Assembly: GCF_017916255.1 (NCBI RefSeq)
Contig: NZ_CP072827.1
Coordinates: 5,047,501 to 5,111,500, forward strand
Length of the DNA stretch: 64,000 bases
Direction of reading: 5' to 3'
DNA from: Streptomyces mobaraensis NBRC 13819 = DSM 40847
GTDB taxonomy: Bacteria > Actinomycetota > Actinomycetes > Streptomycetales > Streptomycetaceae
The notes under the pieces were generated by a model. That model was not told the origin of the DNA and did no database searches. It saw only the letters and a program-made list of their open reading frames with translations. The first letter of the stretch is position 1. Each line of letters opens with the position of its first letter. Shown piece by piece: positions 4,108 to 26,066 of the stretch. Position numbers and translations under genes: made by a program.

Positions 4108-4935
4108 ATGTCCGCTACCGATCACATCCCGGCCGCGGGGCTGCTGCTGCTCTGCCGGGCCGCCCCCGACCGCGTACGACCCGTCGCGCAGCTGCTGCGA
4201 CGGCCGATGGTGCTGGCCCCGGCGGGCGAGGGCTGGAGCGTCCTGGTGCCCGCGGCCGAGTCCTGGCGCGAGGCCGGCACCCACCTCGCCGCGGTCGCGG
4301 GGGACTGGGCGCACGCCCTGACGGTGGCCGACAACTGGCCGGTCGTCGGCCTGTGGTGGGACGCGGACGGCGCGGGGTTCGTGGTGGCGGCGGGCTTCCG
4401 CCGCACCGTGGGCCACACCTGGCTCCCGGACGGCACGCCCCTCGGCGAGGAGGAGGCGCTGACCACCCTCCGCACCCGGCTCGGTCTCGACCCGGTGCTC
4501 GACGGGGCGGCGCTCGACCGGCTGACGCGGCCGGACGCGGAGGCGGACGGGCCCGCCCGGGTTCTCGGCCTCGCCGCCGTCCTGGCGCGGGCGGGCCTCC
4601 AGCTCGGCCCGGGTGTCGTTCCCGGGCTGGCCGCCGGGCGGCTCTGCGAGGCGGCCGGGGCGCTGCCGGGCGCGGAGCCCGTGGACTGGCCCGGGTGGCG
4701 GGCGGCGGTTTGCGGGGGGCTGGGCGCGGCTGAGCGCGGGGCGCTCGGGGCGTGGACGCGGGGGCCGCGGGCGCGGGCTCTTGGTAAGGCCGAAGTCGCC
4801 GCCGGCGTCGTGCTGTTGGCTTGGTCGCGAGGTGGCGCGCGGCGTGGGTGGCGGGCGGCCGGTGCCGTGCTGGTCGCCGACGGCGCGTTGACGTTGCTGT
4901 ACGACCGGTGGCGGGCGGGGCGCGGGGACTCCTGA
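4108..4935 (+). CDS. Hypothetical actinobacterial protein with C-terminal hydrophobic region
   Basis: 275 residues; no family recognised with certainty. The N-terminal 130 residues are mixed alpha/beta with several Trp residues (DNWPVVGLWWDADGAGF). The C-terminal third has a hydrophobic stretch (AEVAAGVVLLAWS) and another near the end (AAGAVLVADGALTLLY) that could be two membrane helices. There is no Shine-Dalgarno sequence. A possible -10 element (TAGCGT) lies only a few bases before the ATG, so the message may be leaderless. It is divergent from the DUF4097-padR operon and shares its intergenic region. Confidence 0.65.
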   Translation: MSATDHIPAAGLLLLCRAAPDRVRPVAQLLRRPMVLAPAGEGWSVLVPAAESWREAGTHLAAVAGDWAHALTVADNWPVVGLWWDADGAGFVVAAGFRRTVGHTWLPDGTPLGEEEALTTLRTRLGLDPVLDGAALDRLTRPDAEADGPARVLGLAAVLARAGLQLGPGVVPGLAAGRLCEAAGALPGAEPVDWPGWRAAVCGGLGAAERGALGAWTRGPRARALGKAEVAAGVVLLAWSRGGARRGWRAAGAVLVADGALTLLYDRWRAGRGDS

Positions 4936-5491: not shown

Positions 5492-5875
5492 GTGATGGAC
5501 GGGATCACCCAGGTGCGGCTCGACGACGGCACGGTCGTGTGGGCCAGGATCAGCGAAGCGCAGGAGCTGGGCTCGCCCGGGAGCGGCGGGTACAAGGACT
5601 CGACGGCGGCGCGCCGCGTCGCGCGGTTGGCGAACGGGCTCGCGGACACCGTGCGCGGGGTCGTCGACTCGCTGCGCATGGGGGTCGCGGCGGCCCGGCC
5701 GCACGAGGTGCAGGTGCAGTTCGGCATCGAGTTGTCCGCCCAGTCCGGCCAGGTCATCAGTCTGCTCACCGACGCGGGCGGCAAGGCGTCGATCAACGTG
5801 ACGCTCACCTGGAAGGAGAGCGGACCGGCCACCGGCGGCGCCCCCGGGGCGCCCACGACCCCCAGCGCTCCTTGA
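5492..5875 (+). CDS. Trypsin-co-occurring domain 1 (Trypco1, CU044_2847-type) protein
   Basis: 127 residues from GTG (an ATG follows directly). The small beta-rich fold has the signature seen beside VMAP-type proteases: an N-terminal QVRLDDGTVVWARI strand, a helix running VARLANGLADTVRGVVDS, and then a HEVQVQFGIEL...ISLL..GGKASINVTLTW sheet. Family knowledge places Trypco domains next to trypsin-like peptidases in NTP-dependent conflict systems, probably as partner or regulator of the protease. The stop overlaps the TTG start of the protease (TTGA), so the two are likely made in fixed ratio. The C-terminal 20 residues are Gly/Pro/Ala-rich and disordered. Confidence 0.8.
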   Translation: MMDGITQVRLDDGTVVWARISEAQELGSPGSGGYKDSTAARRVARLANGLADTVRGVVDSLRMGVAAARPHEVQVQFGIELSAQSGQVISLLTDAGGKASINVTLTWKESGPATGGAPGAPTTPSAP

Positions 5876-8022
5876 ACCCCCATGAAGCCACCGTGCGCCG
5901 GTCCGTCGTCCGCGTCTCCGCGGCCGACGACGGGGAGCTGTCCGTAGACGACCGGTTCTGGGGCACGGGGTTCTTCATCGCCCCCGGCTGGGCCGTCACC
6001 TGCGCTCACGTCGTGGGGAACGGGGGCGGCGGCGTACTGGACGGCACCGCGGCCATCGAGGTCACGGACGGCGACGACCGCGTCCACGAGGGCAGGGTGG
6101 CGTTCGTCCTGCCGCGCCCGGACGACCCCGAGCGCCTCCCGGACCGCTGGCCGCTGCCCGATCTGGCGCTGGTCGAGGTCGCGGACGCGCACGGCGCCGA
6201 GTGCCTCTGGATGAGCGACCGTTCGGCGGTGGTCCCGGCCGACGTGGCCGTCTACGGCTGGTCGCGGGAGACCGGCGAGCTGGGCTGGCGCTACGGCACG
6301 GGCACCGCCGCCGGCGGCGACGGCAGCGGCCGGGCGATGCTGCTGCGCGGCGAGATCCCGGTGGAGGGCTGCTCCGGCGGTCCGGTGGTGGACACCGGCC
6401 GGGGCGCGGTCATCGGGGTGAGCAAGGGGCGGGGACAGAGCCACGGGCTCGCGGTGCCGATCACCGCCCTGCGGCGGATCGCCAACGACCGCCCCGGGCG
6501 CGACCGCCTGCACACCGTCGTCCGCGCGCACGACCGCTACCACCTGCGGCACTACCGCGCGGTCGGCACCGGCCGCAGCTGGACGGGCATCCAGAAGGGC
6601 CTGCGTCCGGCGGCCGAAGGGTTCACCCCGGTGCTGCGCACCCAGCTGTTCGCCCGCCTCGCCGAACTGACCCAGCCCCGGACGCCCGGCGAGGTGATGG
6701 CCCTGGTCGACCAGGCCAAGAGCCGGGTCGTCCAGGAGCCCTACCAGCCCGGCGTCGAGCACGATCCGCGCACCTGGCGCGAGGGCGTCGGCCTCCTCTA
6801 CGACGTGCGGGACGGCGCGGAGGGCCGCGCCGGGCGCACGGGCTGGCCGGGCGCCGGCTCGGGCCCGGGGCGGGACCTGGAGCTGGAGGCGGTCCTGCTG
6901 TACGCGGCGTGGGTGGCGGCGGCCGTCAGCAGGTTCGGCGACCCCGCCGACGCCGGCCCGCTGCGCGAGCTGGCCGGCTGGGTGACCGGCAAGGCGGACC
7001 AGGTGCAGGACGTCATCCGCAAGGAGGTCCAGCGGATCCTGCACGGCCGCCGCGACCCCGGCCCCGACCGGCCGGAGCCGCCCGTCGGCGTCGTCCTGGT
7101 CAAGGACCGGCCGGGCCCGGTGGAGCCCGCCGAGGAGACCGACCTCCAGGCCCGGGCCGACGTGCTCGTCGAGGTGGACGCCCTGATGTACGGCGACCGC
7201 TACCCGTGGCGCGTCAAACTGCTCGGGCAGGACGACCGGATCACCCCGCTCCACGACGACGCCCAGGGTGCCCGCCGGGCCGAGCTCCGCGAGGCGCTGC
7301 GCGAACCGATAGCGGAGGCGCTGCGCCAGGGCGACGTGGGCGAGCACCTGGCGGCGCTCCAACTCGTCCTGCCGCGCGAGCTGTTCGACGAGCCGGTGGC
7401 CGACTGGCGGCTGGTGCCGCCCGGGACGGACGACGACGGCCTGGACCCGCACACCATGCCGCTCGGCCAGCGCCGCGTCGTGGTCGTCCGGGACCGCCGC
7501 CGCCGGGACCGGCGCCACTTCCCGGAGTGGCAGCGGCGGTGGAACGGCTGTACGGCCGGCCCGATGACCGCCGTACCGCTGCGCGCGGAGGTGCCCGTCC
7601 CCGGGCACGGCGCGCGGCGGCCGGAGAGCAGGCACGCGGCGTACGCCCGGCTCTCGGACGTGGACCCGGGCGCCGTCCCGGTCTTCTGCGGGCCGGTCTC
7701 GCACGGCCCGGGCGCCATGGCCCTGGACGCGGCGCTCGCCGCCGGGCACGCGGTGGTGATCTGGCGGGGATGCGCCGGGGAGCACCTCGATTGCGCCGAA
7801 TTCCACGATGAGGTCTCCCGACTGGTGTGCGAGGCGGCCACGGCCGAGGGACTCCACCGCCGGCTGCGCAACCTGCGGATTCGCTGCGCCGACCCCGAAC
7901 AGCCGGACGAGGAGGCGCGCTGGGCGAGGTCGATCGCCCTGCTGTTGGACCGGCCGGAGCATCCGGCGCCGCCCGGTCCGCCGCTGTCCGCGCCGGGTAT
8001 GCGCCCGGAAGGCGGGGCGTGA
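5872..8022 (+). CDS. Trypsin-like serine protease fused to a VMAP C-terminal domain
   Basis: 716 residues if the overlapping TTG is used; an in-frame GTG at 5893 would give 709. The N-terminal domain is a chymotrypsin-fold protease without a signal peptide, so it acts in the cytoplasm. Its catalytic residues are H46 (TCAHVVG), D97 (PDLALVEV) and S168 (EGCSGGPV). A helical middle follows. From about residue 405 comes a vWA-MoxR-associated-protein C domain (VLVEVDALMYGDRYPWRVKL; LQLVLPRELFDEPVADWRL; then the HFPEWQRRWNG segment). In the VMAP ternary systems described by Aravind and colleagues, this protein works with a MoxR ATPase and a vWA protein, which are the next two genes. The target of the protease is unknown. 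Confidence 0.85.
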   Translation: MNPHEATVRRSVVRVSAADDGELSVDDRFWGTGFFIAPGWAVTCAHVVGNGGGGVLDGTAAIEVTDGDDRVHEGRVAFVLPRPDDPERLPDRWPLPDLALVEVADAHGAECLWMSDRSAVVPADVAVYGWSRETGELGWRYGTGTAAGGDGSGRAMLLRGEIPVEGCSGGPVVDTGRGAVIGVSKGRGQSHGLAVPITALRRIANDRPGRDRLHTVVRAHDRYHLRHYRAVGTGRSWTGIQKGLRPAAEGFTPVLRTQLFARLAELTQPRTPGEVMALVDQAKSRVVQEPYQPGVEHDPRTWREGVGLLYDVRDGAEGRAGRTGWPGAGSGPGRDLELEAVLLYAAWVAAAVSRFGDPADAGPLRELAGWVTGKADQVQDVIRKEVQRILHGRRDPGPDRPEPPVGVVLVKDRPGPVEPAEETDLQARADVLVEVDALMYGDRYPWRVKLLGQDDRITPLHDDAQGARRAELREALREPIAEALRQGDVGEHLAALQLVLPRELFDEPVADWRLVPPGTDDDGLDPHTMPLGQRRVVVVRDRRRRDRRHFPEWQRRWNGCTAGPMTAVPLRAEVPVPGHGARRPESRHAAYARLSDVDPGAVPVFCGPVSHGPGAMALDAALAAGHAVVIWRGCAGEHLDCAEFHDEVSRLVCEAATAEGLHRRLRNLRIRCADPEQPDEEARWARSIALLLDRPEHPAPPGPPLSAPGMRPEGGA

Positions 8023-8037
8023 AGGTGTCCCGGCGGA

Positions 8038-8059
8038 GTGACAGGGAAGTGACAGGGAA
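8038..8059. repeat. Adjacent 11-bp direct repeat upstream of the MoxR gene
   Basis: GTGACAGGGAA occurs twice with no spacer, about 150 bases before the MoxR start, in the 187-base gap after the protease gene. The period is one helical turn, as expected for a regulator binding in tandem on one face of DNA. It could mark an internal promoter for moxR-vWA. The role is inferred. Confidence 0.4.
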
Positions 8060-8209
8060 ACGACGGAGCGAGACGGACGAGACGGAAAGGCTCGGCACGC
8101 CGCGCCCGGACCGGTACCGTCGTCCGGGGAGCGGAAGCGGCGACGGCGGACGCGTGGGGGCCCGGCCGGTGACAGCCGGGAGAGCCACGCCGGCAACGAG
8201 GAGCCCGAT

Positions 8210-9214
8210 GTGAACGATTGGCGCATCTACCGGGGAGCCGGCCTGCCGCACGACGGCGTCCGGCGATTGCCTCCGCCGCCCCCCTGGCGCGACTTCGCCG
8301 CGGCCGGGCCCGACACCGGCGCCGGCACGGACCCGAGCGCGGCCCGCCGGCTGGGGGTGCAGCGCCGGCTGGTGGAGAACCACCACCCGCGGCCCGAGGA
8401 GGTCGAGGCGGTCAACGCCGCGCTGTACCTGCGCCGTCCGCTGCTGGTGACGGGCACGCCCGGAACCGGAAAGTCCACTTTGGCCCACGCGGTCGCCTAC
8501 GAGCTCAAGCTCGGCCGCGTGCTGCGCTGGCCGATCGTCAGCCGCTCCACCCTGCGGGACGGCCTCTACCACTACGACGCCATCGCCCGCCTCCAGGACG
8601 TGCAGTTGGAGCGGGCCGGCGCGGACGTCGGCGAGCGCCACTCCATCGGCTCCTACCTGCGGCTGGGTCCGCTCGGCACCGCCCTGCTCCCGGCGGAGCG
8701 GCCCCGCGTGCTGCTCATCGACGAGCTGGACAAGAGCGATCTCGACCTCCCCAACGACCTGCTGAACGTGCTGGAGGAGGGCGAGTTCCGGATCCACGAG
8801 CTGGAGCGGATCGCCGACCGCGAGCCCGAGGTCGAGGTGGGGACGGACGACGGCGGCCGGGCGGTGGTCCGCTCCGGCCTGGTCCGCTGCACCACCTTCC
8901 CGCTCATCGTCCTCACCTCCAACGGCGAGCGCGACTTCCCGGCCGCCCTGCTGCGCCGCTGCATCCAGCTCGACCTCGAACCGCCGGGCGAGGAGCAGCT
9001 CACCGCGATGGTCCGGGCGCACCTGGGCGACGACGCGGTGACGGACGGGAGCGAGCTGATCCAGCGGTTCCTGCGGCGCGAGCCGGGCGAGGTGGTCGCC
9101 GCCGACCAGCTGCTGAACGCCCTGTTCCTCACCCAGCACGCCCCCAGCGCGGAACGCGTCACCCGAGAACGGCTCGCCGACATGCTGATGCAACCGCTGG
9201 ACCGCCCGAGGTGA
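8210..9214 (+). CDS. MoxR-type AAA+ ATPase of the VMAP ternary system
   Basis: 334 residues from GTG with GAGGAG upstream. Walker A is GTPGTGKST (residues 82-90) and Walker B is LLIDELDK (D171, E172). A sensor-1-like LTSNGERDF and an arginine-finger region LLRRCIQLDL follow. This MoxR subfamily (compact, with an N-terminal Pro-rich extension) couples ATP hydrolysis to remodelling of a client together with a vWA partner. The vWA gene begins 6 bases after its stop. Together with the upstream trypsin-VMAP protein it completes the ternary set. Confidence 0.9.
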   Translation: MNDWRIYRGAGLPHDGVRRLPPPPPWRDFAAAGPDTGAGTDPSAARRLGVQRRLVENHHPRPEEVEAVNAALYLRRPLLVTGTPGTGKSTLAHAVAYELKLGRVLRWPIVSRSTLRDGLYHYDAIARLQDVQLERAGADVGERHSIGSYLRLGPLGTALLPAERPRVLLIDELDKSDLDLPNDLLNVLEEGEFRIHELERIADREPEVEVGTDDGGRAVVRSGLVRCTTFPLIVLTSNGERDFPAALLRRCIQLDLEPPGEEQLTAMVRAHLGDDAVTDGSELIQRFLRREPGEVVAADQLLNALFLTQHAPSAERVTRERLADMLMQPLDRPR

Positions 9215-9220
9215 TGAGCG

Positions 9221-12200
9221 ATGACGGCGCCCCCCGAGCCGTGGCTGGAGGAGCTGGTCGGCCGGTTGCGGGCCACCTCCCAGGACGTGACCGCCGAGGA
9301 GATAGCCGACGCGGTGTGGCTGGCCGGACGGATGACCCCGGGCCCGGGGGCGCCCACCCCGTCCGGGGAGGGCGCAGAGCGCGCGGCGGCCGGTGAGACG
9401 GCCGCTGCCGCGACCGGCCGGCGGTCCGGGCTCACCGACCGCGCCCGGGTTCCGGACGAGCCCCGGCTGCCCTCGGCGGGCGGCGGGGAGCCGGCGCCCG
9501 AGGGTTCCGTCGGCGTGCGCCTCGACGGCCGTGGGGCGCGCGGGACGGGTGAGACCGCCGCGGCGGCCGGCCGGGGCATGGGTCCGGCCCGGGCCACCGA
9601 CGCCGTCGAGCGGACGTTCCCCGTCCGGGTGCCCTGCGCCGCCTCCCTGCCCGGCCTGCTGGGGCTGCAGCGCGCCCTGCGCCCGCTGCGCGGCTACCGG
9701 TCGCTCGCCGCGCCCCCGCGCGGGCCGCTGGACGAGGACGCCACCGCCGACCGCGCGGCCCGCACGGGCGTCGTCCACCCCGCCTACCGCCGGGGCGAAC
9801 GGCAGGCGGCGGCCATGCAGTTACTGATGGACACCTCCGCCTCCATGGTCGTCTGGGAGCGGATGCTGGACGAAATGGAGCAGACCTGTTCGCAGTTGGG
9901 CGTCTTCCGCGACGTCCGGGTGCGGTATCTGCACCGGGCGCCCGACGGTACGCCCCTGATCGCCACCTCGGCGGCCGGCGGCGCTCCCGGCTCGTCCCGG
10001 CAACGCCCGCGCCCCGCAGACCAGTTCCTCGACCCCTCCGGCCGCCGGCTCACCCTGGTCATCAGTGACTGCGTGGGTCCCCTGTGGCAGGAGGGGCGCG
10101 CCCAGCGGCTGCTGCACCGCTGGTCCGCGACCGCGCCGCTCGCCGTCGTCCAGCCGCTGCCGCCCAGGCTCTGGCCGCGCACCGCGCTGCCCGCCGAGGG
10201 CGGGACGCTCACCCGCGACCCCCTGTCGGGCGGCCGGCTGGGCTTCGAGCCGGACGCCTTCGGCCCGCCCCCGCCGCGGGGCGCACTGCCCGTGCCCGTC
10301 CTGCTGCCCGTCCGCGAGGCGCTGGGCGCGTGGGCCCGGCTGCTGTCCGGCCCCGGGCGGACGGCCGTGCACGGCGCGGCCGGCTGGGTGCTCCCGGAGC
10401 ATCCGGCGTCGGCGCCACCGCCCCCGGAGGAGACCGGGAACCTCACCGCGGACGCCCGCCTGGCCGCGTTCCGCGCCACGGCCTCGCCCGGCGCCCTGCG
10501 CCTGGCGACGCACTTCGCGGCCGTTCCCCTGGCGTTGCCCGTGATGCAGATGGTGCAGCGGGCGATGCTGCCCGACACCGGGGCCATGGAGCTGGCCGAG
10601 GTGCTGCTCGGCGGGCTGCTCTGGCGGGTGCCCGCCCCGACGGGCAGCGACGCGGCCACCGGCCCCTGGTACGAGTTCGCCGACGGCGTCCGGGAGCTGC
10701 TGCTCCAGTCCCTCGGGGTGGACGAGGCCACCCTGGTGCTCAAGCACTGCTCCGACTACGTGGAGCGGCACTTCGGCCGGAGCGCCCGCAACTTCTCCGC
10801 CCTCGCGGTCGCGCGGCTGCGCGGCCGTCCGCTGCCCGACACCGGCGCCGACGACCCCGCCGACTCCGCCGATCCCTCCGGCTCCTCCGGCGCGGAACCC
10901 GAGCTGTTCGCCCGGGTCCCGGCCCGGGTGGTGCGCTGGTACCGGCCGACGCCCCCGGAGACCGGGCCGGTCGGCGAGGCGGCGGGCCTGCTGCGGCTCT
11001 GGCACGACCAGGGCGACTCCGCCCTGCTGCACGAGGCGCGCGGCCTCGTCGCCCCCCTGGCGGCGGCCCCGCTCGCCGGGCCGCACGGCGACGGACGCGA
11101 CGAGGCGGTCCGCGCCCGGTTCGTGCTCGGCGGCGTCCTGCTGGCCCTGGCCGGCACCGAGGCCGTCCGCGACGATCCCGCCGGCCGCCGCGAGCTGCTG
11201 GACCGGGCCGTCGCCCTGCTCGCCGAGGCCCACGCGCACACGCCCCCCGGCACCGGGGAGCGCACCGCCGCCGGCACCGACGCGCACACCGCCACCGGCC
11301 TCGAACTGGCCGCCGCCCACTGGGCCCGCTGGCGGGCCGCGGCCGATCCCGCCGACGGTTCCGACCTCACGGCCGCCGAGGCGGTCCTGCGGGCCCTGCC
11401 CGCCCGGACCGACCGCCGGCTGCGGCTGGGCCGGGTCCTGCTGGCCCTCGCCGAGTCCGGCACCGAGTCGAGGGTCCCGCGCGCCGCCGAGGCCGCCGTC
11501 GAACTCCGCGCCGCCTGCGAGCTGCTGGAGGCCGAGGACGCGCCCGACGGGCGGCGCTGCGCCGCCCTGCTGGACCTGGGCCGTGCCCTGCGGCTGGCCG
11601 GCGAACCCGCCGCGGACACGCTCGCCGTCCTCGACCGGGCCGCCGAGGCCGCCGCGGACGAACTCCAGTCGCTCTACGCCCACCTCGAACGCGCCCGCGC
11701 GCACACCGGCGCGGGCGACGGCCCGCGGGCCGACGAGGCGTACACCGCCGCCGTCGCCCTCACCGGCCGCGACAGCCCGCGCCGCTGCCAACTGCTCACC
11801 GAGTGGGGCGAGTCGCTCCTCGGCCGCGCCGAGGCGGCCGGGCCGGCCGGGGACACCGGGACGGTCTCCCGCGCGGAGGCGGTCCTGCGCGAGGCGTACG
11901 CCGTGAGCCCCGGGCGCTCGCCACGCCGCCCGCGCCTCCAACTGCTGCTCGGGCGCGCCCTGGTGCTGCGCTACGGCCGGCTCGGCTTCCTGCCCGACCT
12001 CTACGAAAGCTGTCACCTGCTGGAACAGGCCGCCCGCCGGGCGCCGGACGGCGACACCCGCGCGGAGGCGTGGCTGGAGCTGGGCACCGCGCGGCTCGCC
12101 CTGCGGGAGCGCTCGCCCGGCCTGCCGCTGACCGACGCGGCCGACGCCTTCGCCGCCGCGGCCGAACAGGCGCGCCGCAGCGCCGGGGACGAGCCGGGCT

Positions 12201-12391
12201 CGGTCGTCGCCGCCCGCGCCTCGCACCGCTACGGCGAGGCCCTGGAGCGGATGGGGCTGCGCCGGCAGGCCCTGGCCGCGTACCGGGCCGCGGCGGGGGA
12301 GTGGCGCGACCTCACCGCCCGGCTGGCGGAGGTGCCCTGGGAGGAGGTCGCGGCCACCCGGGAAAGCGTCGCCCGCCTTTCCGGGGGGTGA
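9221..12391 (+). CDS. SAV_2336-type large vWA domain protein with C-terminal helical repeats
   Basis: 1056 residues. After about 180 disordered residues comes a von Willebrand A-like domain whose metal site is intact (LMDTSASM: D204, S206, S208). A helical middle carries VLKHCSDYVERHFGRSARNFSAL. Residues from about 640 to the end are Ala/Leu/Arg-rich helical hairpins resembling TPRs (for example ALLDLGRALRLAGEPAADTL). In MoxR-vWA pairs the vWA protein is the substrate adaptor; here it probably bridges the ATPase, the protease and other partners. A TTA codon is present at 9821-9823 (codon 201), rare in Streptomyces and a sign of bldA-dependent translation. The nearest ATG was taken as start. 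Confidence 0.85.
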   Translation: MTAPPEPWLEELVGRLRATSQDVTAEEIADAVWLAGRMTPGPGAPTPSGEGAERAAAGETAAAATGRRSGLTDRARVPDEPRLPSAGGGEPAPEGSVGVRLDGRGARGTGETAAAAGRGMGPARATDAVERTFPVRVPCAASLPGLLGLQRALRPLRGYRSLAAPPRGPLDEDATADRAARTGVVHPAYRRGERQAAAMQLLMDTSASMVVWERMLDEMEQTCSQLGVFRDVRVRYLHRAPDGTPLIATSAAGGAPGSSRQRPRPADQFLDPSGRRLTLVISDCVGPLWQEGRAQRLLHRWSATAPLAVVQPLPPRLWPRTALPAEGGTLTRDPLSGGRLGFEPDAFGPPPPRGALPVPVLLPVREALGAWARLLSGPGRTAVHGAAGWVLPEHPASAPPPPEETGNLTADARLAAFRATASPGALRLATHFAAVPLALPVMQMVQRAMLPDTGAMELAEVLLGGLLWRVPAPTGSDAATGPWYEFADGVRELLLQSLGVDEATLVLKHCSDYVERHFGRSARNFSALAVARLRGRPLPDTGADDPADSADPSGSSGAEPELFARVPARVVRWYRPTPPETGPVGEAAGLLRLWHDQGDSALLHEARGLVAPLAAAPLAGPHGDGRDEAVRARFVLGGVLLALAGTEAVRDDPAGRRELLDRAVALLAEAHAHTPPGTGERTAAGTDAHTATGLELAAAHWARWRAAADPADGSDLTAAEAVLRALPARTDRRLRLGRVLLALAESGTESRVPRAAEAAVELRAACELLEAEDAPDGRRCAALLDLGRALRLAGEPAADTLAVLDRAAEAAADELQSLYAHLERARAHTGAGDGPRADEAYTAAVALTGRDSPRRCQLLTEWGESLLGRAEAAGPAGDTGTVSRAEAVLREAYAVSPGRSPRRPRLQLLLGRALVLRYGRLGFLPDLYESCHLLEQAARRAPDGDTRAEAWLELGTARLALRERSPGLPLTDAADAFAAAAEQARRSAGDEPGSVVAARASHRYGEALERMGLRRQALAAYRAAAGEWRDLTARLAEVPWEEVAATRESVARLSGG

Positions 12392-12517
12392 CCGTACGTG
12401 GTCCGAACGGGTTTCCGGATTACGGCGCCCGGGAAGAACCGAGCAGCCGCGAGGGGGCCGTCCACCGGACGTCCGGCGGGAGCCGCGGCAGGGAACCATG
12501 GCAGGGAGGAGCAGAGG

Positions 12518-12763
12518 GTGGCCAAGCACAGGAACGCCGCCGCGTCGGACCCCGCGGGCGGAGCGGGGGCGGCGCCGCCGCTGCCCGACCTTCGAGGCGT
12601 CGGCCTGCGCGGCCTGCGCGGCCTGCGGGATCCCGGCCTGGCCGCCGCCGTCGACAGCACGCTCCGGCGGCCGGCCGAGCTGGACGAGACCTGGTACTCC
12701 AGCGGCCACCAGGGGGGCCGCTTACGGGAGCCGGTGGAGGAGGCGGCCGGGGCGGGCGCGTGA
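12518..12763 (+). CDS. Putative RiPP-like precursor peptide
   Basis: 81 residues from GTG, with GGGAGGAGCAGAGG just upstream. Residues 1-20 are Ala/Gly/Pro-rich and disordered. A short repetitive amphipathic stretch follows (LRGVGLRGLRGLRDPGLAAA), then ELDETWYSSGHQGG and an acidic-alanine end. The size, the leader-like helix and the aromatic-hydroxyl motif W-Y-S-S-G-H suggest a modification substrate. The stop overlaps the start of the HExxH gene (GTGA). It does not end in FxSxx, so it is not a canonical FxsA precursor. Codon 69 (12722-12724) is TTA, implying bldA control. It may instead be an adaptor rather than a precursor. Confidence 0.6.
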   Translation: MAKHRNAAASDPAGGAGAAPPLPDLRGVGLRGLRGLRDPGLAAAVDSTLRRPAELDETWYSSGHQGGRLREPVEEAAGAGA

Positions 12764-14286
12764 CGAGCGGAGAACAGAGCGGGGAACGGAGTGGGGAGCC
12801 GGCCGCGGGGACACCGCCCGGACGGCGGCCCGCGCCGCCGCCGCGTCCCGCGGGGGACGCGGGGCGCGGGGCGGGAGCGCGGGCGCCGGTGTCCGTACGG
12901 CCGCGCCCGGCCGCGCGACGGGCCGGCGACCCCCCTCGGCCCCTCGCCACCGCCTCCCTGCCGCTCGCCGTGAGCCTCGTGGCGCCGGACGCGCTGGAGC
13001 GGCTCGCGCGGACGCGCGCCACGGCCGACGACCTCGCGCTCCTCCTGCACGCCCTGCACAGCAGACGCCTCGTCCTCCTCAAGTCCCTGCTGACCCGCCT
13101 GGAACGGGACCCGCGCGCCGTCCCCGCCTCCGCGCGGGAGCGGTTCGAGGCGCATTGGAGCCTGATGGAGCGCGCGGAGGCGCGGCACGCGCCGGCGGTT
13201 CGCGACACCCTCGACTACCCCTCCGTCGGCAACTGGCTGGCGCGCGCCCTGGCCGCGCCCCAAGGCGCCCCGCTCGCCGCCGAGCTGGAGCACTTCGGGT
13301 CCGTCGCCGCCGCCGCCGCACTCCGCTCCGGGGCCGCCTTCACGGCCGAACTCGCCGCCCCCGCGGGGACGCTGGCCCTCCCCGGCATCGGCCTGCTGGA
13401 AGCCGGAGCCCCCGTCGTCCGGCTCACCGCCCGGGCCCGTACCGCCCGCCTCACCGTGCCCGGCGCCGGCCGCCACCCCGCGCACCACGGGCCGGTGCTG
13501 CTGCGCGGCGCCCGCCGGGTCACCGGCGCCGGGACGGGCTGGCACGGCCTGCGCAGGCTGCCCGGCGCCGCCGCCGTCCTGGACGACCTCGACCCCTACC
13601 GCGCCCCCGCCACCGGCGTCGGCCGGACCGCCCTGCCGCCTTCCGGCCGCACCGCGGGCGCCGGCCGGCCCTGGACCCGCCGCTGGCGCGCCGCCCTGGG
13701 CCTGCTGCGCGCCACCGACCCGCGGCGGGCCGCCGAGACCACCGCGCTGCTGCGCTGCCTGGTGCCCGTCGCCGGCCCGGCGGACGGCGGGGAGACCGAG
13801 GTCAGCGCCACCGCCCGGGCGGCGCCCGGCGCCATACTGGCCACCCTGCCGCGCACCGCCGCCGACCTGGCCGAGGTGCTCGTCCACGAGACCCAGCACA
13901 CGAAACTGGCCGTGCTGCACGACCTCGTCCCGCTGCACGACGCCGGTCCCGCGGCCGTGCACCGGGTCGCCTGGCGGCCCGATCCCCGCCCGCTCGCCGG
14001 TGTGTTCCAGGGGACGTACGCGCATCTGGCCCTCGCCGAGTTCTGGGACCGGGCGGCCCGGGGGACCGCCCTGCCGGACGCGGTGCGCGAGGAGGCGCGG
14101 ACCCGGTGCGATTCGTACCGCCGACAGGTCGCGGAAGCGGTGCCCATCCTGCTTGAATCCAGTGAACTGACTCCCGCGGGCCGGGAGTTCGCGACGGGCA
14201 TGGAACGGCTCCTCCTGAGTCTGGGACGAACCGGACGCATGGCGCCCGGCATCGCCGGTGCGTCATCATGTGATGACGTACAGTGA
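12760..14286 (+). CDS. aKG-HExxH-type putative peptide beta-hydroxylase
   Basis: 508 residues. About 70 disordered residues lead into a helical domain (ALERLARTRATADDLALLLHAL). The signature lies in AEVLVHETQHTKLAVLHDLVPLHD (H376, E377, H380), followed by the YAHLALAEFW helix. Proteins with this mod_HExxH signature sit beside short peptides and FxSxx-COOH systems. The family is now treated as alpha-ketoglutarate/iron-dependent peptide hydroxylases rather than metalloproteases, with the HExxH supplying iron ligands. The 4-base overlap with the peptide gene suggests that peptide is the substrate. The exact residue modified is unknown. Confidence 0.75.
   Translation: MTSGEQSGERSGEPAAGTPPGRRPAPPPRPAGDAGRGAGARAPVSVRPRPAARRAGDPPRPLATASLPLAVSLVAPDALERLARTRATADDLALLLHALHSRRLVLLKSLLTRLERDPRAVPASARERFEAHWSLMERAEARHAPAVRDTLDYPSVGNWLARALAAPQGAPLAAELEHFGSVAAAAALRSGAAFTAELAAPAGTLALPGIGLLEAGAPVVRLTARARTARLTVPGAGRHPAHHGPVLLRGARRVTGAGTGWHGLRRLPGAAAVLDDLDPYRAPATGVGRTALPPSGRTAGAGRPWTRRWRAALGLLRATDPRRAAETTALLRCLVPVAGPADGGETEVSATARAAPGAILATLPRTAADLAEVLVHETQHTKLAVLHDLVPLHDAGPAAVHRVAWRPDPRPLAGVFQGTYAHLALAEFWDRAARGTALPDAVREEARTRCDSYRRQVAEAVPILLESSELTPAGREFATGMERLLLSLGRTGRMAPGIAGASSCDDVQ
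14261..14278. promoter_or_regulatory. 18-bp palindrome near the end of the HExxH gene, upstream of fxsT
   Basis: CGTCATCA, a 2-base spacer, then TGATGACG: a perfect inverted repeat overlapping the last codons of the hydroxylase gene and about 77 bases before the fxsT start. Its half-site shares CGTCAT/ATGACG with the palindrome at 18215-18230. It could be an operator for fxsT or for the XRE regulator downstream; this is inference. Confidence 0.35.
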
Positions 14287-14354
14287 TGATGTCGCCGCAC
14301 CGGACCCCCGGGCGGCCGCCCGGACCACGCGGTGCGAAGGAACGAGGGACGCGC

Positions 14355-17300
14355 ATGAACACGCAGCGGTATCAGGTCGGCGCCGGTGCGCAGGACCGGG
14401 TCGGCGAGCACTTCACCATCGTCTTCGCCGGCTTCTACCGGCCTTGGGCGACCTGGATCCAGCACCGGCTGGAAAGCCACGGCCACCGGACGACACTCCA
14501 CCGCTGGGACCCGCCCCGAGAGGTCCCCCTGGAGGCCGCGCTGGGCGACCTGCTGCTCGCCAGGGGCCGGATCCTGCTGGTGCTCAGCGACTGGTTCTTC
14601 GAACTCGGCCCGCGCCGCGAGGACGAGTGGAACGAGGCGCTGCGCGGCATCGTCGCGGACAACGTCGACCGCTTCGCCGCCGTCAACCTCACCAACCGGG
14701 CGCTCCTCCCCGCCACCGCCGTCCTGGAGCCGGCCGACCTCTGGGGCGTCGGCGCGCCCGAGGCCGAGCGCCGGCTCCTCGCCCGCCTTCAGCTGCCCGA
14801 GGGCCCGCCCCGGCGCCCGCTCCCCGCCGGCCCGGGCGCCCGCTACCCCAACGACCCGCCGGCCGTCTGGGGCGACGTCCCCCGCCGCAACCGCCGCTTC
14901 ACCGGCCGCGACGACCTGCTCAACCAGGTCCAGGAGCAGCTGATGGACGCCGACCGCGGCACCGCCGTCTGCGTCCTCGTCGGCATGTCCGGCATCGGCA
15001 AGACGCAGATGGCCGCCGAGTACGCGCACCGGTTCAGCTCCGACTACGACGTCGTCTGGTGGGTCAACTCCGACACCCGCGGCACCCAGCGCGAGCGGTT
15101 CGGCGAGCTCGCCCCCGAGTTGCAGCTCGACGTCGGCTCCGAGCCCGGTGAGCGCATCCGCGCGCTGCGCGAGGCGCTGCGCCGCGGCGAGCCCTACAAG
15201 AACTGGCTGATCATCTTCGACGGCTGGGACGACACCGACCTCGTCGACGAGATCCTGCCCTGGGGCCAGGGGCACGTCCTGATCACCTCGCGCAACCGCC
15301 TCTGGGACCGGTACGGCGCCACCGTCGACGTACCGGGCTTCCAGCGGCACGAGAGCACCGGCTACCTGATGCGCCGCGCCCCCCGGCTCACCGCCGAACA
15401 GGCCGACGCCGTCGCCTCCGAGCTCGGCGACGTGCCCATCGCCCTGGTCCAGGCCGCCGCCTGGCTGGGCGAGTCGGACATGGAGGTCGCCGACTACCTG
15501 CGGATGGTCCGGGACGGCGACGGGGTCGGCCTGGCCGACCACGGCGAGTACGAGGGCATCCCCACCTCGATGATCACCTCCTGGTCGATACTGATCAACC
15601 GGCTCCGCGAGACCCAGCCCCACGCCGTCGAACTCCTCACCCTCTGCACGTCGTTCGGGGCCGGCCGGATCCCGATCGGCCTCATCCGCGTCATGCCGCC
15701 CGCCCAGCTGCCCGACAGCCTCGGCTGGCTGGTGTCCGACCTGCCGAGCTGGACGCGGGCGCTCGACACCCTGGTCAACTACTCGGTGTTCACCCGCGAA
15801 TCGCGCGACCTGCGCACCACCCAGGCGCACGAGCCCGGACCCGAGCAGGAGTCGGTGCACATGCACCGGCTGGTCCACGACATCGTCGCCCGCCTCACCT
15901 CACCCGAGGAACGGCAGCTGCACCGCCGCATCGTCCGCCGCATGATCGCCGCCGCCGACCCGGGCAACCCCCAGGACAGCCGGCTCTGGCCCCGCTACGC
16001 CGAGCTGCTGCCGCACCTGGAGCCCTCCGGCGCGCTCGGCAGCCACGACTACCGGGTCCAGGAGACCGTCCTCAACCTGCTGCGCTACTGCATGCACAGC
16101 GGCGAGTTCCGCACCGGCGTCGAGCTGGCGGAGCAGATCCGCACCCAGTGGTCCGAGATGTTCCCGCCCGAGCACCCCCGGATGGTCGAACTCACCACCC
16201 AGCAGGGCAACATCCTGCGCGCCCACGGCCTCTTCCGGGCCGCCTACGAGCTCGACCGCGAGTGCCTGGAGCGGCTGCGCGCCCTCCCGGACACCGACGC
16301 CGGCAGCCTGATGACGGCCACCAGCTGCCTCGCCGCCGACCAGCGCTTCCTCGGCCAGTACACCGAGGCCCTCCAGATGCAGCGCGAAGTCCTCAACACG
16401 GCCCTCGAACTGCTCGGCCCCGACGACTACACCACCCTCCTCGCCCAGCACAACCTCGGCGTCGGCCTCCGGCTGCTCGGCCGCTACTCCGAGGCGTACG
16501 ACATCGACCTGGAGACCCTGCGCGCCCGCGAGAACCAGCTCCGCGCCCGGCACGCCGCCACCCTGGTCTCCGGCATCGCCTGCGCCCGCGACCTGCGCCT
16601 GATGGGCCGCTACGGCGACGCCCTGGCCCGCCAGGAGCTCGGCATGCGGCTGCACATCCAGGTCCTGGGCGCCAACCACCCGCAGACCCTGCGCGCCCGC
16701 CACAACCTGCTGCTCTGCCAGCGCCGCGCCGGCTCCCCGCAGGACCTCACCGGCGCCATGGCCGGTCTCCTCGAACAGATGGAGCAGGTCCACGGCCGCC
16801 GGCACTACGCCACCATGGGCCTCGTCGTGGACTTCGGCAACTACGCCCGCGAGCACGGCGACATCCGGCAGGCCCGCGAGCTCATCGAGGAGGGCGAGAG
16901 CGGCTTCCGCACCCTCCTCGGCCCCGCCCACCCCATCAGCACCGGCATGCTCTCCAACACGGGCCTTGTCCTCCAGGCCGCCGGTGAACGGGCCGAGGCC
17001 CTCACCATGTTCGAGTCCGCCTACGCGGGCCTGGCCGCCTCCCTCGGCCCCGACCACCCCTGGGTCCTCGGCTGCGCCCTCAACGCCGCCGCCGGCCGCA
17101 ACTTCACCGGCCGCCTGGAGAGCGCCGCCGACCTCAGCCGCGACACCCTCCGCCGCGCCCGCACCGCCCTGGGCCAGGACCACCCCTTCACCCTCTCCTG
17201 CGAAGTGGCCCTGGCGGCGGACCTGCGGGCGCTGAGGGAGCACGAGGAAGCGGAGAAGGTGGAGGAAGACGCCCTCCAGCGCCTCGCCCGCACCCTGGGC

Positions 17301-17375
17301 GCCCAACACCCCCACGCCCTCTCGGCCCGCCAACGCTCCCGGCCGTACTGGGACTTCGAGCCGTACCTGGGATAA
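14355..17375 (+). CDS. fxsT: FxSxx-COOH system TPR protein (FxsT-like): TIR-like, NB-ARC and TPR
   Basis: 1006 residues from ATG. Residues 1-140 are TIR-like (HFTIVFAGFYRPWATWI, ILLVLSDWFFELGPRREDEWNEAL). Next comes an NB-ARC/STAND NTPase with Walker A GMSGIGKT (210-217), a Walker-B-like WLIIFDGWDD and HVLITSRNRLWDR. From about residue 570 to the end are kinesin-light-chain-like TPRs (LGPDDYTTLLAQHNLGVGL, LGANHPQTLRARHNLLLC). This is the architecture of STAND sensors used in bacterial immunity and signalling. In Streptomyces such genes are annotated with FxSxx-COOH peptide systems. Here no FxsB radical SAM gene is present in the window. The 3' end is partly duplicated at 18234-18465. Confidence 0.8.
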   Translation: MNTQRYQVGAGAQDRVGEHFTIVFAGFYRPWATWIQHRLESHGHRTTLHRWDPPREVPLEAALGDLLLARGRILLVLSDWFFELGPRREDEWNEALRGIVADNVDRFAAVNLTNRALLPATAVLEPADLWGVGAPEAERRLLARLQLPEGPPRRPLPAGPGARYPNDPPAVWGDVPRRNRRFTGRDDLLNQVQEQLMDADRGTAVCVLVGMSGIGKTQMAAEYAHRFSSDYDVVWWVNSDTRGTQRERFGELAPELQLDVGSEPGERIRALREALRRGEPYKNWLIIFDGWDDTDLVDEILPWGQGHVLITSRNRLWDRYGATVDVPGFQRHESTGYLMRRAPRLTAEQADAVASELGDVPIALVQAAAWLGESDMEVADYLRMVRDGDGVGLADHGEYEGIPTSMITSWSILINRLRETQPHAVELLTLCTSFGAGRIPIGLIRVMPPAQLPDSLGWLVSDLPSWTRALDTLVNYSVFTRESRDLRTTQAHEPGPEQESVHMHRLVHDIVARLTSPEERQLHRRIVRRMIAAADPGNPQDSRLWPRYAELLPHLEPSGALGSHDYRVQETVLNLLRYCMHSGEFRTGVELAEQIRTQWSEMFPPEHPRMVELTTQQGNILRAHGLFRAAYELDRECLERLRALPDTDAGSLMTATSCLAADQRFLGQYTEALQMQREVLNTALELLGPDDYTTLLAQHNLGVGLRLLGRYSEAYDIDLETLRARENQLRARHAATLVSGIACARDLRLMGRYGDALARQELGMRLHIQVLGANHPQTLRARHNLLLCQRRAGSPQDLTGAMAGLLEQMEQVHGRRHYATMGLVVDFGNYAREHGDIRQARELIEEGESGFRTLLGPAHPISTGMLSNTGLVLQAAGERAEALTMFESAYAGLAASLGPDHPWVLGCALNAAAGRNFTGRLESAADLSRDTLRRARTALGQDHPFTLSCEVALAADLRALREHEEAEKVEEDALQRLARTLGAQHPHALSARQRSRPYWDFEPYLG

Positions 17376-17419
17376 GAGGTGCCGACCGGGAGGCGGTTCC
17401 CACTGAGACGGGTCGGCCG

Positions 17420-17620
17420 CTACCGGCGGGGTGTGAGGCTCACCGTGATGTCGCATTCGAGGGCGGCGGCCAGGCGTTGGAGAACCGGAAGGGTCGGTAT
17501 CGCCTTGCCGGACTCGACGCGCGAGACGAATGCCTGTCCTGTGCCCGCGCGGGTGGCGAGCTCGGCCTGGGAAAGGCCGAGCTCGATCCTCCGGGAGCGG
17601 ACGAGGGCCGCGGTGTTCAC
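17420..17620 (-). CDS. Small XRE-family HTH regulator
   Basis: 66 residues, little more than a Cro/CI-type helix-turn-helix (LVRSRRIELGLSQAELATR, then FVSRVESGKAIPTLPVLQRL). The GTG start overlaps the stop of the upstream Uma2 gene by four bases (GTGA), so the pair is coupled. An autoregulatory role through the palindrome at 18215-18230 is likely. The small regulator-nuclease pairing resembles toxin-antitoxin or restriction-controller modules, but toxicity is not shown. Confidence 0.8.
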   Translation of the reverse strand: MNTAALVRSRRIELGLSQAELATRAGTGQAFVSRVESGKAIPTLPVLQRLAAALECDITVSLTPRR

Positions 17621-18201
17621 TGCGGCGCCGCGTTGTAGCGCGGCAGTTCACCGGTGTCGATGACCCAGTCGCTGATGGTGATCTTGTCGCCGAAGGTGTA
17701 AGGAACCCTGGCGCTGTACTCCGGGACGCCGTTCTTCGATGTGATGGCCCAGTAGTGGACGCACGTGCCGTCACGAGGGTCGACGATCAGATAGTGCGGG
17801 ATGCCGAGCCGGGGGTAGTGGCGCACCTTGCTCTCGTAGTCGTTCTCCGGGTTGGAGGGCGAGACGATCTCGACGGCTGCCAGCAGGGCCTCGGGGTCGA
17901 TGGCGTCGTCCGTGTCCATGGCGGCTTCGGGAAGGACGAGGACGTCGGGACGGCGCAGCTGGCCGAGGTCGGCCGCCTCGATGTCGCCCGAGGTGGTGGC
18001 GACGATCCCGGGAGGCAGCTGCGGCTGGAGTTGGCGTTCGATGCGCAGGGCGGCGAGGCCATGACGTCCTGCGGGACTCATCATCATGATGATCTGGCCG
18101 TCGCTGATCTCGACATGTGGGCTCAGGGGCGCCGGCGGCGTGAGGTGTTCGGCCAGTGAGCGCAGCTGGCGGTAGATCTCTCGTCGCGTCGCAGCCGTCA
18201 T
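17617..18201 (-). CDS. Uma2-family putative endonuclease (DUF820, PD-(D/E)XK)
   Basis: 194 residues from ATG, with AAGGTGAGG upstream. It has the family layout: an N-terminal helix, HVEISDGQIIMMMSPAGRHG, the conserved QLRRPDVLVLPEA strand, the core VEIVSPSNPENDYESKVRHY (Glu and Lys of the nuclease-like site), and GIPHYLIVDPRDG. Uma2 proteins are abundant in Streptomyces and predicted to be nucleases, though activity is rarely shown. It forms an operon with the XRE gene and lies between fxsT and a decayed copy of the fxsT tail, so it looks like a mobile cassette. Confidence 0.85.
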   Translation of the reverse strand: MTAATRREIYRQLRSLAEHLTPPAPLSPHVEISDGQIIMMMSPAGRHGLAALRIERQLQPQLPPGIVATTSGDIEAADLGQLRRPDVLVLPEAAMDTDDAIDPEALLAAVEIVSPSNPENDYESKVRHYPRLGIPHYLIVDPRDGTCVHYWAITSKNGVPEYSARVPYTFGDKITISDWVIDTGELPRYNAAPQ

Positions 18202-18214
18202 GACCTCACCTTAC

Positions 18215-18230
18215 ATGACGAAATCGTCAT
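18215..18230. promoter_or_regulatory. Palindromic operator of the uma2-xre operon
   Basis: ATGACGA, a 2-base AA spacer, then TCGTCAT: a perfect 7-base inverted repeat. It is centred about 20 bases before the uma2 ATG, beside an AT-rich CTTATAT element on the minus strand that could be the -10. The position suits repression by the co-encoded XRE protein. Binding is inferred. Confidence 0.55.
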
Positions 18231-18233
18231 ATA

Positions 18234-18465
18234 AGGGGTGAACGAGCGGGCCGAGGCCCTCGTCGTGTTCGAGTCCGCCCGCGCGGGCCTGGCTGCCTCC
18301 CTCGGCCCCGGCCACCCCTGGTCGGCCACCCCTGGTCCTCGGCCGCGCCGCCAACGCCGCCGCCGGCCGCGACTTCACCGGCCGCCTGGGAGGCGCCGCC
18401 CCCGCGCCCTCTCGGTCAGCCAACGCTCCCGGCCGTACCGGGACTTCGAGCCGTATCGGGGGTAG
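18234..18465 (+). pseudogene. Decayed partial copy of the fxsT 3' end
   Basis: The first part matches fxsT from about 16981 to 17130, with scattered substitutions (GCCGAGGCCCTC, TTCGAGTCCGCC, GGCCTGG.TGCCTCCCTCGG). A 14-base tandem duplication of GGCCACCCCTGGTC breaks the frame, about 190 bases are then missing, and the last part matches 17320-17375 (CAACGCTCCCGGCCGTAC, GACTTCGAGCCGTA) up to a TAG stop. There is no start codon or ribosome site. It shows that the fxsT tail was duplicated and that xre-uma2 now lies between the copies. Confidence 0.8.
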
Positions 18466-18604
18466 CGGCGCCTCGGGTGGTTCAAGTAGCCCCTGTGGCA
18501 AGGCCGTTACCGGCGGTGCCCCGCGAACGCTCGCGGTGACGACTCACAAGTCCGTGGTGAGAGGACGCACCTCTCGGACGTGAGTCGGGTCAAGGAGCGG
18601 CGCA

Positions 18605-19456
18605 TTGGGTACGGAACGTCAGTGGGTGCGCGAAGAGTCGGGGACATCCCGGGCGACCGGGCGAGCGGCCACCCGGAAGAGTGCCATCGTGCTCGCCGCG
18701 GTGCTCCTGGCGGGCACGGGGGCAGTCCACGCGTCCGACGGTGAACCGGGGGACCGCGGCACGCACTGGAAGGTGCCCCGCCTCGTGGTGATGCCGCTGG
18801 GTGATTCGATCACCTATGGCGTCGGCAGCTCGGACGGCTCCGGGTACCGGGGCACACTGCGGAACCGGCTCGCCAAGCATGCCGGAACGCTGGATTTCGT
18901 CGGCTCGGAGCGGAGCGGCCGGCTTCCCGACCCCGATAACGAAGGCCATCCGGGGTGGCAGATCGACGACATCTCGACCAACATCGGCACCTGGCTGCCG
19001 GCGGCCAAGCCCAACGTCGTCCTCCTGCACATAGGGACGAACGACCTGGCCTACGACTACGGCTACGGCGTGGACGACGCCCCCGGCCGGTTGGGCGAGC
19101 TCATCGACAGGATCACATCGGCCGCCCCCGACATGACCGTGCTGGTCTCCACACTCGTTCCGGCCGGGGACCCCCGTACACGGAAACGCATCGACGCCTT
19201 CAACGCCGCGGTGCCGACCGTGGTGGCGGAACGCCGGCGCAGAGGATTCCACATCGGCCACGTGGACATGGGCAGGCTCACGAAGCAGGACCTCATCGAC
19301 AGGCTCCATCCGAACGACGATGGATTCGCCAAGATGAGCGACGTCTTCTACGACGGAATCGCCCGGGCCGCCGTCGCCGGATGGATCCGGCAGCAGGTGG
19401 GTGTCAAACCGGCTCCGACGCCCAAGGTGTCCCCCGACAACCGACGGGAGCGCTGA
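18605..19456 (+). CDS. Secreted SGNH/GDSL-type esterase
   Basis: 283 residues from TTG, with AAGGAG eight bases upstream. A signal peptide or anchor lies at about residues 22-44 (SAIVLAAVLLAGTGAVHASDG). Catalytic blocks are MPLGDSITYG (Ser68), a glycine in block II, HIGTNDLAYD, and the Asp-His pair in DRLHPNDDGF (D232, H235). It should hydrolyse ester or acetyl groups on extracellular lipids, glycans or antibiotics. Its stop is one base before the start of an acyltransferase-3 gene, so the two probably act on the same surface molecule, one adding and one removing acyl groups. Confidence 0.85.
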   Translation: MGTERQWVREESGTSRATGRAATRKSAIVLAAVLLAGTGAVHASDGEPGDRGTHWKVPRLVVMPLGDSITYGVGSSDGSGYRGTLRNRLAKHAGTLDFVGSERSGRLPDPDNEGHPGWQIDDISTNIGTWLPAAKPNVVLLHIGTNDLAYDYGYGVDDAPGRLGELIDRITSAAPDMTVLVSTLVPAGDPRTRKRIDAFNAAVPTVVAERRRRGFHIGHVDMGRLTKQDLIDRLHPNDDGFAKMSDVFYDGIARAAVAGWIRQQVGVKPAPTPKVSPDNRRER

Positions 19457-19457
19457 C

Positions 19458-20645: not shown

Positions 20646-20691
20646 CGCGGTTAGCCTTCCGGTGCCGACGATCACCGGAAGGAATCCGCAC

Positions 20692-21903: not shown

Positions 21904-21956
21904 GCCCGGGAACGGGCCGGGGCCCGTACCGCCGATGCGGTACGGGCCCCGGGCTC
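21902..21956. terminator. Bidirectional terminator between the propeller gene and kgd
   Basis: A perfect 14-base stem (GGGGCCCGTACCGC at 21919-21932, complement at 21937-21950) closes a CGAT loop. An outer GAGCCCG/CGGGCTC pair extends it. It lies between two convergent genes and probably serves both. Confidence 0.85.
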
Positions 21957-21977
21957 GTAGCGGGTCGCCAGCCGGGC

Positions 21978-25805
<3,828 letters not shown>

Positions 25806-26066
25806 GGCGGCAACCGCCCTCTTCCGCTTCCTAAGGTGGTGGACAGCGGGAATAAAGGCTACGCCTGTCCGCTGCCCTGATGCAGGCCACCGGGGCCAGT
25901 CGTCGCGCAAGTCACACTCGGCCCCGTGTTTCAGGGCATGACTTGGCGGGAAACACCCGAGGTTTCGCACTCCCCGACTGTTTCCGACCCCTCCGTGGGT
26001 ACGCGGAATGGTGCCCCACATCCGGATGAACGTGTGCTTCCGCCTTCGACCCTACGTCAACTCGGA

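Follow-up and report, generated by a model that had tools for sequence, protein, structure and literature searches.

The window considered here is a stretch of 64,000 nucleotides from the chromosome of Streptomyces mobaraensis NBRC 13819 = DSM 40847 (contig NZ_CP072827.1, positions 5,047,501 to 5,111,500 of the forward strand). It holds a run of seven consecutive genes, all on the + strand at 5495-17375 of the window, in which the parts of a VMAP ternary system are followed by a small peptide, an HExxH enzyme and a receptor of the signal transduction ATPase with numerous domains (STAND) type. The evidence leans towards a chromosomal conflict locus of the VMAP-ternary type with a peptide-processing module, free of radical S-adenosylmethionine (SAM) chemistry, that would operate by peptide signalling. 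Statements on published work refer to the accessible parts of the cited papers.

Layout of the locus

5495-5875, + strand: Trypco1 (trypsin-co-occurring domain 1; CU044_2847 family), 126 aa; PF19493 68.7 bits, NF041216 60 bits
5872-8022, + strand: VMAP, trypsin-like serine protease with VMAP-C; PF13365 (Trypsin_2) 53 bits, PF20028 (VMAP-C) 122 bits
8210-9214, + strand: MoxR-type AAA+ ATPase, 334 aa; AAA_5 35.2 bits, AAA 30.2 bits
9221-12391, + strand: vWA protein (SAV_2336 N-terminal family), 1056 aa; NF041121 466 bits over residues 24-520
12518-12763, + strand: precursor-like peptide, 81 aa; leader LPDL..., core WYSSGHQGG
12760-14286, + strand: alpha-ketoglutarate (aKG)-HExxH-type peptide beta-hydroxylase without a radical SAM domain; TIGR04267 162 bits against a cut-off of 40
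14355-17375, + strand: FxsT-type TIR-like/NB-ARC/TPR STAND protein, 1006 aa; NF040586 (FxSxx_TPR) 785 bits against a cut-off of 300, with TIR_2, NB-ARC and TPR matches

The original prediction, made from the letters and open reading frames alone, had placed six or seven co-directional, consecutive genes here, and the family matches bear out seven. Its assignment of the first four genes to a VMAP ternary set likewise stands on the VMAP-C, NF041121 and Trypco1 matches, with the AAA+ gene recognised by generic models. Since 8210-9214 matches generic AAA models only, the bpMoxR model reaching 20.5 bits under a cut-off of 27, the name 'MoxR' is partly contextual. The likening of the last three genes to an FxSxx-type neighbourhood fits the separate TIR/NB-ARC/TPR gene and the HExxH gene but not the peptide, which ends without FxSxx.

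The protease gene may start at TTG 5872, overlapping the Trypco1 stop, or at GTG 5893, and its catalytic triad is numbered from 5872. Its triad had been read as H46/D97/S168, residues that are indeed conserved in 63, 64 and 64, respectively, of the 65 aligned type-B proteins (locus types are defined below). The nucleotide-site residues of the MoxR Walker A/B region are invariant or nearly so in type B. The vWA protein carries a sequence resembling a metal ion-dependent adhesion site (MIDAS), DTSAS at 204-208; D204 is kept in 65/65 type-B proteins and the window retains DxSxS. No Pfam family matches this protein, C-terminal region included, and no effector domain is seen in Pfam. The GTG start of the HExxH gene overlaps the peptide stop. 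A scan of the locus found no promoter-like sites and two terminator-like sites against 1.5 expected, and is uninformative on operon structure.

The TIR-like domain was modelled with a mean predicted local distance difference test score (pLDDT) of 88.8, and its structural matches to TIRs are weak (best 5for, E 5.9e-4). In TIR NADases we take the catalytic Glu to lie four residues after the conserved helix C Trp. At position 96, four past W92, Leu stands in 64/65 rows of type B and 23/23 of type A, W92 being equated with the TIR Trp by sequence only. Because Leu rather than Glu stands at the position assumed to be catalytic, NADase activity is doubtful, and the domain probably assembles rather than hydrolyses NAD.

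Genomes and loci compared

Two sets of loci were compared. The first comes from 150 genomes of the window's genus, at least 118 of which hold HExxH matches; 120 matches scoring roughly 101 bits and upwards, from 99 genomes, were read with up to 20 kb around them and, together with the window, give 121 classified loci. Type B loci have no gene for the radical SAM protein FxsB and a separate TIR protein, type A loci carry FxsB, and type C loci have the AP-ATPase fused to the vWA protein. The second, named set stems from a contig scan with 15 type-B HExxH queries and comprises the best 80 of 410 relatives, all titled Streptomyces and enriched for type B; the two sets overlap (L102, L166) and are not independent. 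Contig-cut loci, assigned by their place in the HExxH tree, are counted among the 23 type-B genomes below (L155 with one third of the columns) and also among the 32 type-A genomes, which further take in L079, a locus without ternary genes in its 20 kb. Four HExxH-only loci of type-A kin are excluded from both genome counts. Trees were built with a quick method.

Conservation of the seven genes

The gene order of the set is not chance, because no matched set gene lies on the opposite strand in any of the 80 named loci and the complete type-B order recurs in 64 of them and in 18 of the 120 non-window loci of the first set (19/121 with the window). Of the remaining named loci, 14 are cut at contig edges, L214 has the type-B order with an extra vWA match and no Trypco1 match, and L238 carries FxsB. 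Type A is complete in 15/121 loci, with eight more lacking only a Trypco1 match. A fusion of vWA and AP-ATPase is present in 23/23 of the type-C loci picked and in 0/42 type-A and type-B loci.

The MoxR and HExxH genes also travel together across genomes. Among the matches listed, 22 genomes have a MoxR of at least 76% identity (two of the matches, in G118 and G135, are partial) and all 22 have a type-B HExxH gene; conversely, 22 of the 23 type-B HExxH genomes have such a MoxR, the exception being G072, whose contig starts inside the vWA gene. The unbroken order had been proposed to reflect one machine, and these shared genomes support one conserved unit. A neighbourhood comparison of all seven genes had been called for, with separate travel of the first four and last three as the outcome that would speak against the proposal; no such separation was seen in the type-B clade.

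Two independent modules, one the VMAP ternary set and the other the peptide, HExxH and FxsT genes, might nevertheless have been kept together by inheriting a common locus linked to the core gene kgd. Gaps between the modules, such as 12391-12518, agree with this, as do the 9/121 loci (six with the full 20 kb, three contig-shortened) where FxsB, HExxH and FxsT occur without ternary genes. The near-complete co-occurrence within type B just described argues against it, as does the AP-ATPase reported to be present whenever VMAP systems are linked to peptide processing (PMC7159879), and we regard such independence as rather improbable.

A lineage without the radical SAM gene

In the MoxR tree, type A (24 rows, support 94) and type B (19 rows, support 86) are sister groups, and in the HExxH tree the 22 type-B rows plus one contig-cut row share one branch with support 100. 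Among the matches listed, and with contig-cut loci placed by the tree, type B occurs in 23 and type A in 32 of the 150 genomes, with none in common; such a lack of overlap has a chance of 0.002 if genomes are taken as independent, which they are not. HExxH scores at the type-B level (at least 466 bits) are confined to the window's genus among the matches listed, with 3 genomes in a family sample (n=101) and 17 in an order sample (n=147), samples that are partly the same. The best listed score from another genus is 338 bits, and FxsB adjoins 4/4 type-A-like loci read from that genus.

The prediction had stressed the absence of radical SAM chemistry, and this is confirmed: FxsB was not found in the window cluster, and its best match in the window's genome among those listed is 35 bits against a cut-off of 370. 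FxsB acting in trans was considered as a general rule and rejected, since 15 of the 21 type-B genomes scored (of 23; G015 and G118 left out) have no FxsB over the cut-off among the matches listed. In type C, 21/23 loci have no FxsB, while L152 and L154 carry it. Because FxsB stands beside all four other-genus loci and type-B scores are confined to the window's genus among the matches listed, the data favour loss of FxsB in type B rather than gain in A, although the direction is not settled, A and B being sisters.

The precursor peptide

The window peptide scores 13.3 bits with the FxSxx-COOH model TIGR04268, under the cut-off of 28. It keeps a leader resembling that of FxSxx precursors. Type-B peptides were recovered in 94/100 loci; five others are cut by contig ends, and in L232 the search pattern found none. 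Peptides below threshold, four of type B and eight of type A (giving 28/30 type-A loci), were restored by hand before residues were compared. An F/Y-x-S/N-x-x ending occurs in 0/90 type-B peptides, and by eye the four restored ones likewise lack it. As a control, the type-A peptides have the FxSxx ending in 13/20 cases by the strict pattern and in 20/20 by the looser one.

What type B has instead is a core Trp, present in 79/80 distinct sequences and replaced by Phe in one (L221). In type A, Leu (once Met) aligns with this Trp, Phe or Tyr follows three residues beyond in 28/28 peptides, and a Trp stands one residue past the aligned Leu in 21/28. Peptides of the nine nearest named loci that have one (L159-L165, L167, L168) read W-Y-S-(S/G/C)-G in eight cases and W-D-D-G-G in L168. 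A rough count over 44 non-independent close pairs gives a ratio of nonsynonymous to synonymous differences (pN/pS) of 0.21 for the leader plus Trp and 0.76 for the tail; constraint therefore drops after the Trp.

The HExxH enzyme

The enzyme's last 418 residues were modelled with AlphaFold2 from 35 sequences (pLDDT 89.6). Under an E-value of 0.001, Foldseek returned SjiH (22ob, E 1.6e-20, template modelling score 0.76) and four chains of ChlH (8s5f) and no others, and a sequence search of the PDB agrees (22nu/22ob and 8s5f). Relatives of the window enzyme are described as aKG-dependent hydroxylases (PMC12636437, PMC13060819). H376, E377, H380, R406, R410, G418 and H422 are invariant in 22/22 type-B rows. 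The earlier label of putative peptide hydroxylase thus gains an oxygenase fold, in place of a plain peptidase, and we model the protein as an aKG-dependent peptide oxygenase by fold, its function being predicted.

Alternatively, the protein could be a zincin peptidase whose cut frees a toxin or signal peptide from the precursor. This was proposed in Kaur et al. 2020 (PMC7159879), and the family member PflC is proteolytic without its leader (PMC12636437). The fold and sequence matches, however, point to SjiH and the aKG-dependent oxygenase ChlH, and R410 and other residues common to these two are invariant in type B. A peptidase was rejected as first choice on these matches, and we consider it quite unlikely.

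H422, found in types A, B and D, is replaced by Phe in 23/23 type-C rows and in ChlH, a possible shift in the iron site as judged from aligned residues. Elsewhere in the window's genome lie three tandem HExxH matches (C1:6045676-6047948; frames of 288-316 aa, 77-94 bits), which are outside the 121-locus set.

The chromosomal site

21978-26021, - strand: kgd (2-oxoglutarate decarboxylase/dehydrogenase), a core gene that marks the site and lies outside the system; NF008907 2120 bits

A convergent kgd lies in the stretch read of 72/80 named loci, at 76-270 nucleotides from FxsT in 68 of these 72 (median 99.5). In the first set it is near 44/121 loci (20 B, 17 A, 7 others), including 20 of the 21 non-window type-B loci and 17 of 29 type-A loci, and is not seen in the stretch read of the other 12. 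A mobile island as the vehicle of the type-B clade was accordingly rejected, with kgd beside 20/21 non-window type-B and 72/80 named loci. In the window, kgd is 4.6 kb from FxsT; the genes between them at 17376-21977 (a Uma2-family gene, two without a family match and a PQQ-propeller-like protein) are probably an insertion.

VMAP systems are reported to prefer positions about 33% from either chromosome end (PMC7159879). Among 17 loci on long contigs, ten lie at 0.31-0.35 of the contig from an end (full range 0.07-0.38), and the window locus, at 0.67 of its chromosome, fits the published position. Together with the kgd linkage and the lack of genomes shared by A and B among the matches listed, these contig positions suggest that the reported preference reflects one inherited site for types A and B.

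The fixed place beside kgd bears on whether the locus serves defence at all. It could instead be a signalling or developmental system of the kind that makes ribosomally synthesised and post-translationally modified peptides (RiPPs), with the peptide product as output and the VMAP and FxsT proteins as maturation and response apparatus. A conserved leader with a variable tail would suit this as well, and so would the weak PADLOC matches, in which the protease hits RT-Protease_XI at 26 bits and the ATPase hits mad8, IetA and RtcR. Family-model searches, however, identified no exporter among the seven genes, and the protease, STAND and AAA+ proteins are of the kind assigned to conflict systems (PMC7159879). 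We hold this alternative to be unlikely, though not negligible.

Other genes were noted at or near the site. Four loci there (L147, L149, L153, L156) have a lone HExxH gene related to type A, the 20 kb read showing no match to the ternary genes, FxsB or FxsT; in L147 this gene is immediately preceded by a Ni-superoxide dismutase frame. Just upstream of the window's set is a co-directional gene at 4108-4932 without a match in family-model searches; relatives, at about 50-56% identity in the longest matches, occur in 20/120 other loci, and the gene may belong to the set as an eighth member or may simply neighbour the site.

Proposed mechanism

In the conflict locus favoured here, the HExxH enzyme would recognise the leader and, using aKG, O2 and Fe(II), hydroxylate the linear peptide at its Trp or at a residue close by. 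In its modified or unmodified form, the peptide would serve as a ligand for the TIR-NB-ARC-TPR protein or for the vWA protein. MoxR and vWA would then remodel the complex, so that the trypsin-VMAP protease, with Trypco1, is freed as effector. This order follows the proposal of a vWA-side sensor and a protease effector in PMC10907252, and is preferred because the window's vWA protein has no effector domain in Pfam.

Several points weigh against this reading. According to PMC10907252, Kaur et al. saw VMAP as the sensor, with the peptidase cleaving the vWA protein to free effectors, a view that opposes the protease-effector order. ChlH needs a preinstalled cyclophane for activity (PMC12636437), and the window cluster holds no known cyclophane-making enzyme; if acting alone, the window enzyme would have to work without a cyclophane, and no such need is described for PflC, PosC and PesO in the accessible parts of PMC12636437 and PMC13060819. 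The hydroxylated residues named in the accessible part of PMC13060819 do not include Trp. FxsB over the cut-off occurs elsewhere in at least 6 of the 21 type-B genomes scored. The MIDAS serines are often lost in type B (position 206 is Gly in 41/65 and position 208 Ala in 37/65), whereas type A has Ser in 22/23 at both; this counts against peptide capture by the vWA protein, the window itself having both serines. Finally, what ties the peptide to a sensor is co-occurrence alone.

A bolder version of the signalling mechanism would be an intracellular alarm gated by 2-oxoglutarate, oxygen and iron. In healthy cells the HExxH enzyme would maintain the Trp-core peptide in its hydroxylated state. 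When hydroxylation fails, through metabolic collapse or phage takeover, unmodified peptide would set off the STAND protein and license the VMAP protease; in its logic this would be a bacterial counterpart of HIF hydroxylation. Both the alarm and the analogy are a long shot. If true, the fixed place by kgd, a 2-oxoglutarate-consuming core enzyme, would be meaningful.

Irrespective of the alarm, type B separates the HExxH step from the radical SAM step of a widespread, unproven conflict system, and the peptide-modifying role is therefore testable with one enzyme and one peptide. Should the peptide prove to be the STAND ligand, a bacterial NB-ARC receptor would have a defined trigger of endogenous origin.

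Comparison with known systems

According to Kaur et al. 2020 (PMC7159879), a peptide-processing module is present in about 20% of the VMAP-ternary systems of actinobacteria; it consists of a zincin-like (HExxH) gene called a metallopeptidase, a small peptide and an AP-ATPase-TPR protein. Where the peptide is of the FxSxx type, a radical SAM gene is added, and the AP-ATPase-TPR protein stands alone and bears an N-terminal TIR; where the peptide is RxD or acidic, that protein is fused to vWA. The original prediction had put the coupling forward as the best candidate for an undescribed system; this does not hold, since the coupling was predicted in that paper, including the separate downstream TIR-AP-ATPase.

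The FxSxx-type systems share with the window the trypsin-VMAP protease and Trypco1, MoxR, vWA, the small peptide, the HExxH gene and the separate downstream TIR-AP-ATPase-TPR protein. They differ in having a radical SAM/SPASM gene and an FxSxx peptide, neither of which is found in the window or in type B, so that type B breaks the published link of the separate TIR-AP-ATPase with the FxSxx type. The RxD/acidic-peptide systems, to which we infer the type-C loci correspond, share an HExxH gene without a radical SAM gene, as far as the text of PMC7159879 tells, but have the AP-ATPase fused to vWA, unlike the separate gene of the window.

As for the enzyme, ChlH and SjiH resemble it in sequence, fold and shared active-site residues. 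ChlH, PflC/PosC and PesO sit in RiPP gene clusters, none of them described within a VMAP locus in the accessible parts of PMC12636437 and PMC13060819, and SjiH is known here as a PDB entry alone. VMAP ternary systems linked to diversity-generating retroelements (PMC10907252) have in common with the window the trypsin-VMAP protease, MoxR, vWA, Trypco1 and nearby TIR effectors, with the protease proposed as effector; unlike the window, they sense through diversified C-type lectins. HExxH, hydroxylase and radical SAM do not appear as words in the accessible part of that paper, and HExxH and radical SAM are likewise absent from that of a later VMAP paper (PMC8195603). No earlier account of type B was found in the open-licence literature, a scope that does not take in the supplements of Kaur et al., where type-B loci could figure. 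Taken together, the general system is known, and its radical-SAM-free form with a Trp-core peptide, type B, is new as far as the open-licence literature shows.

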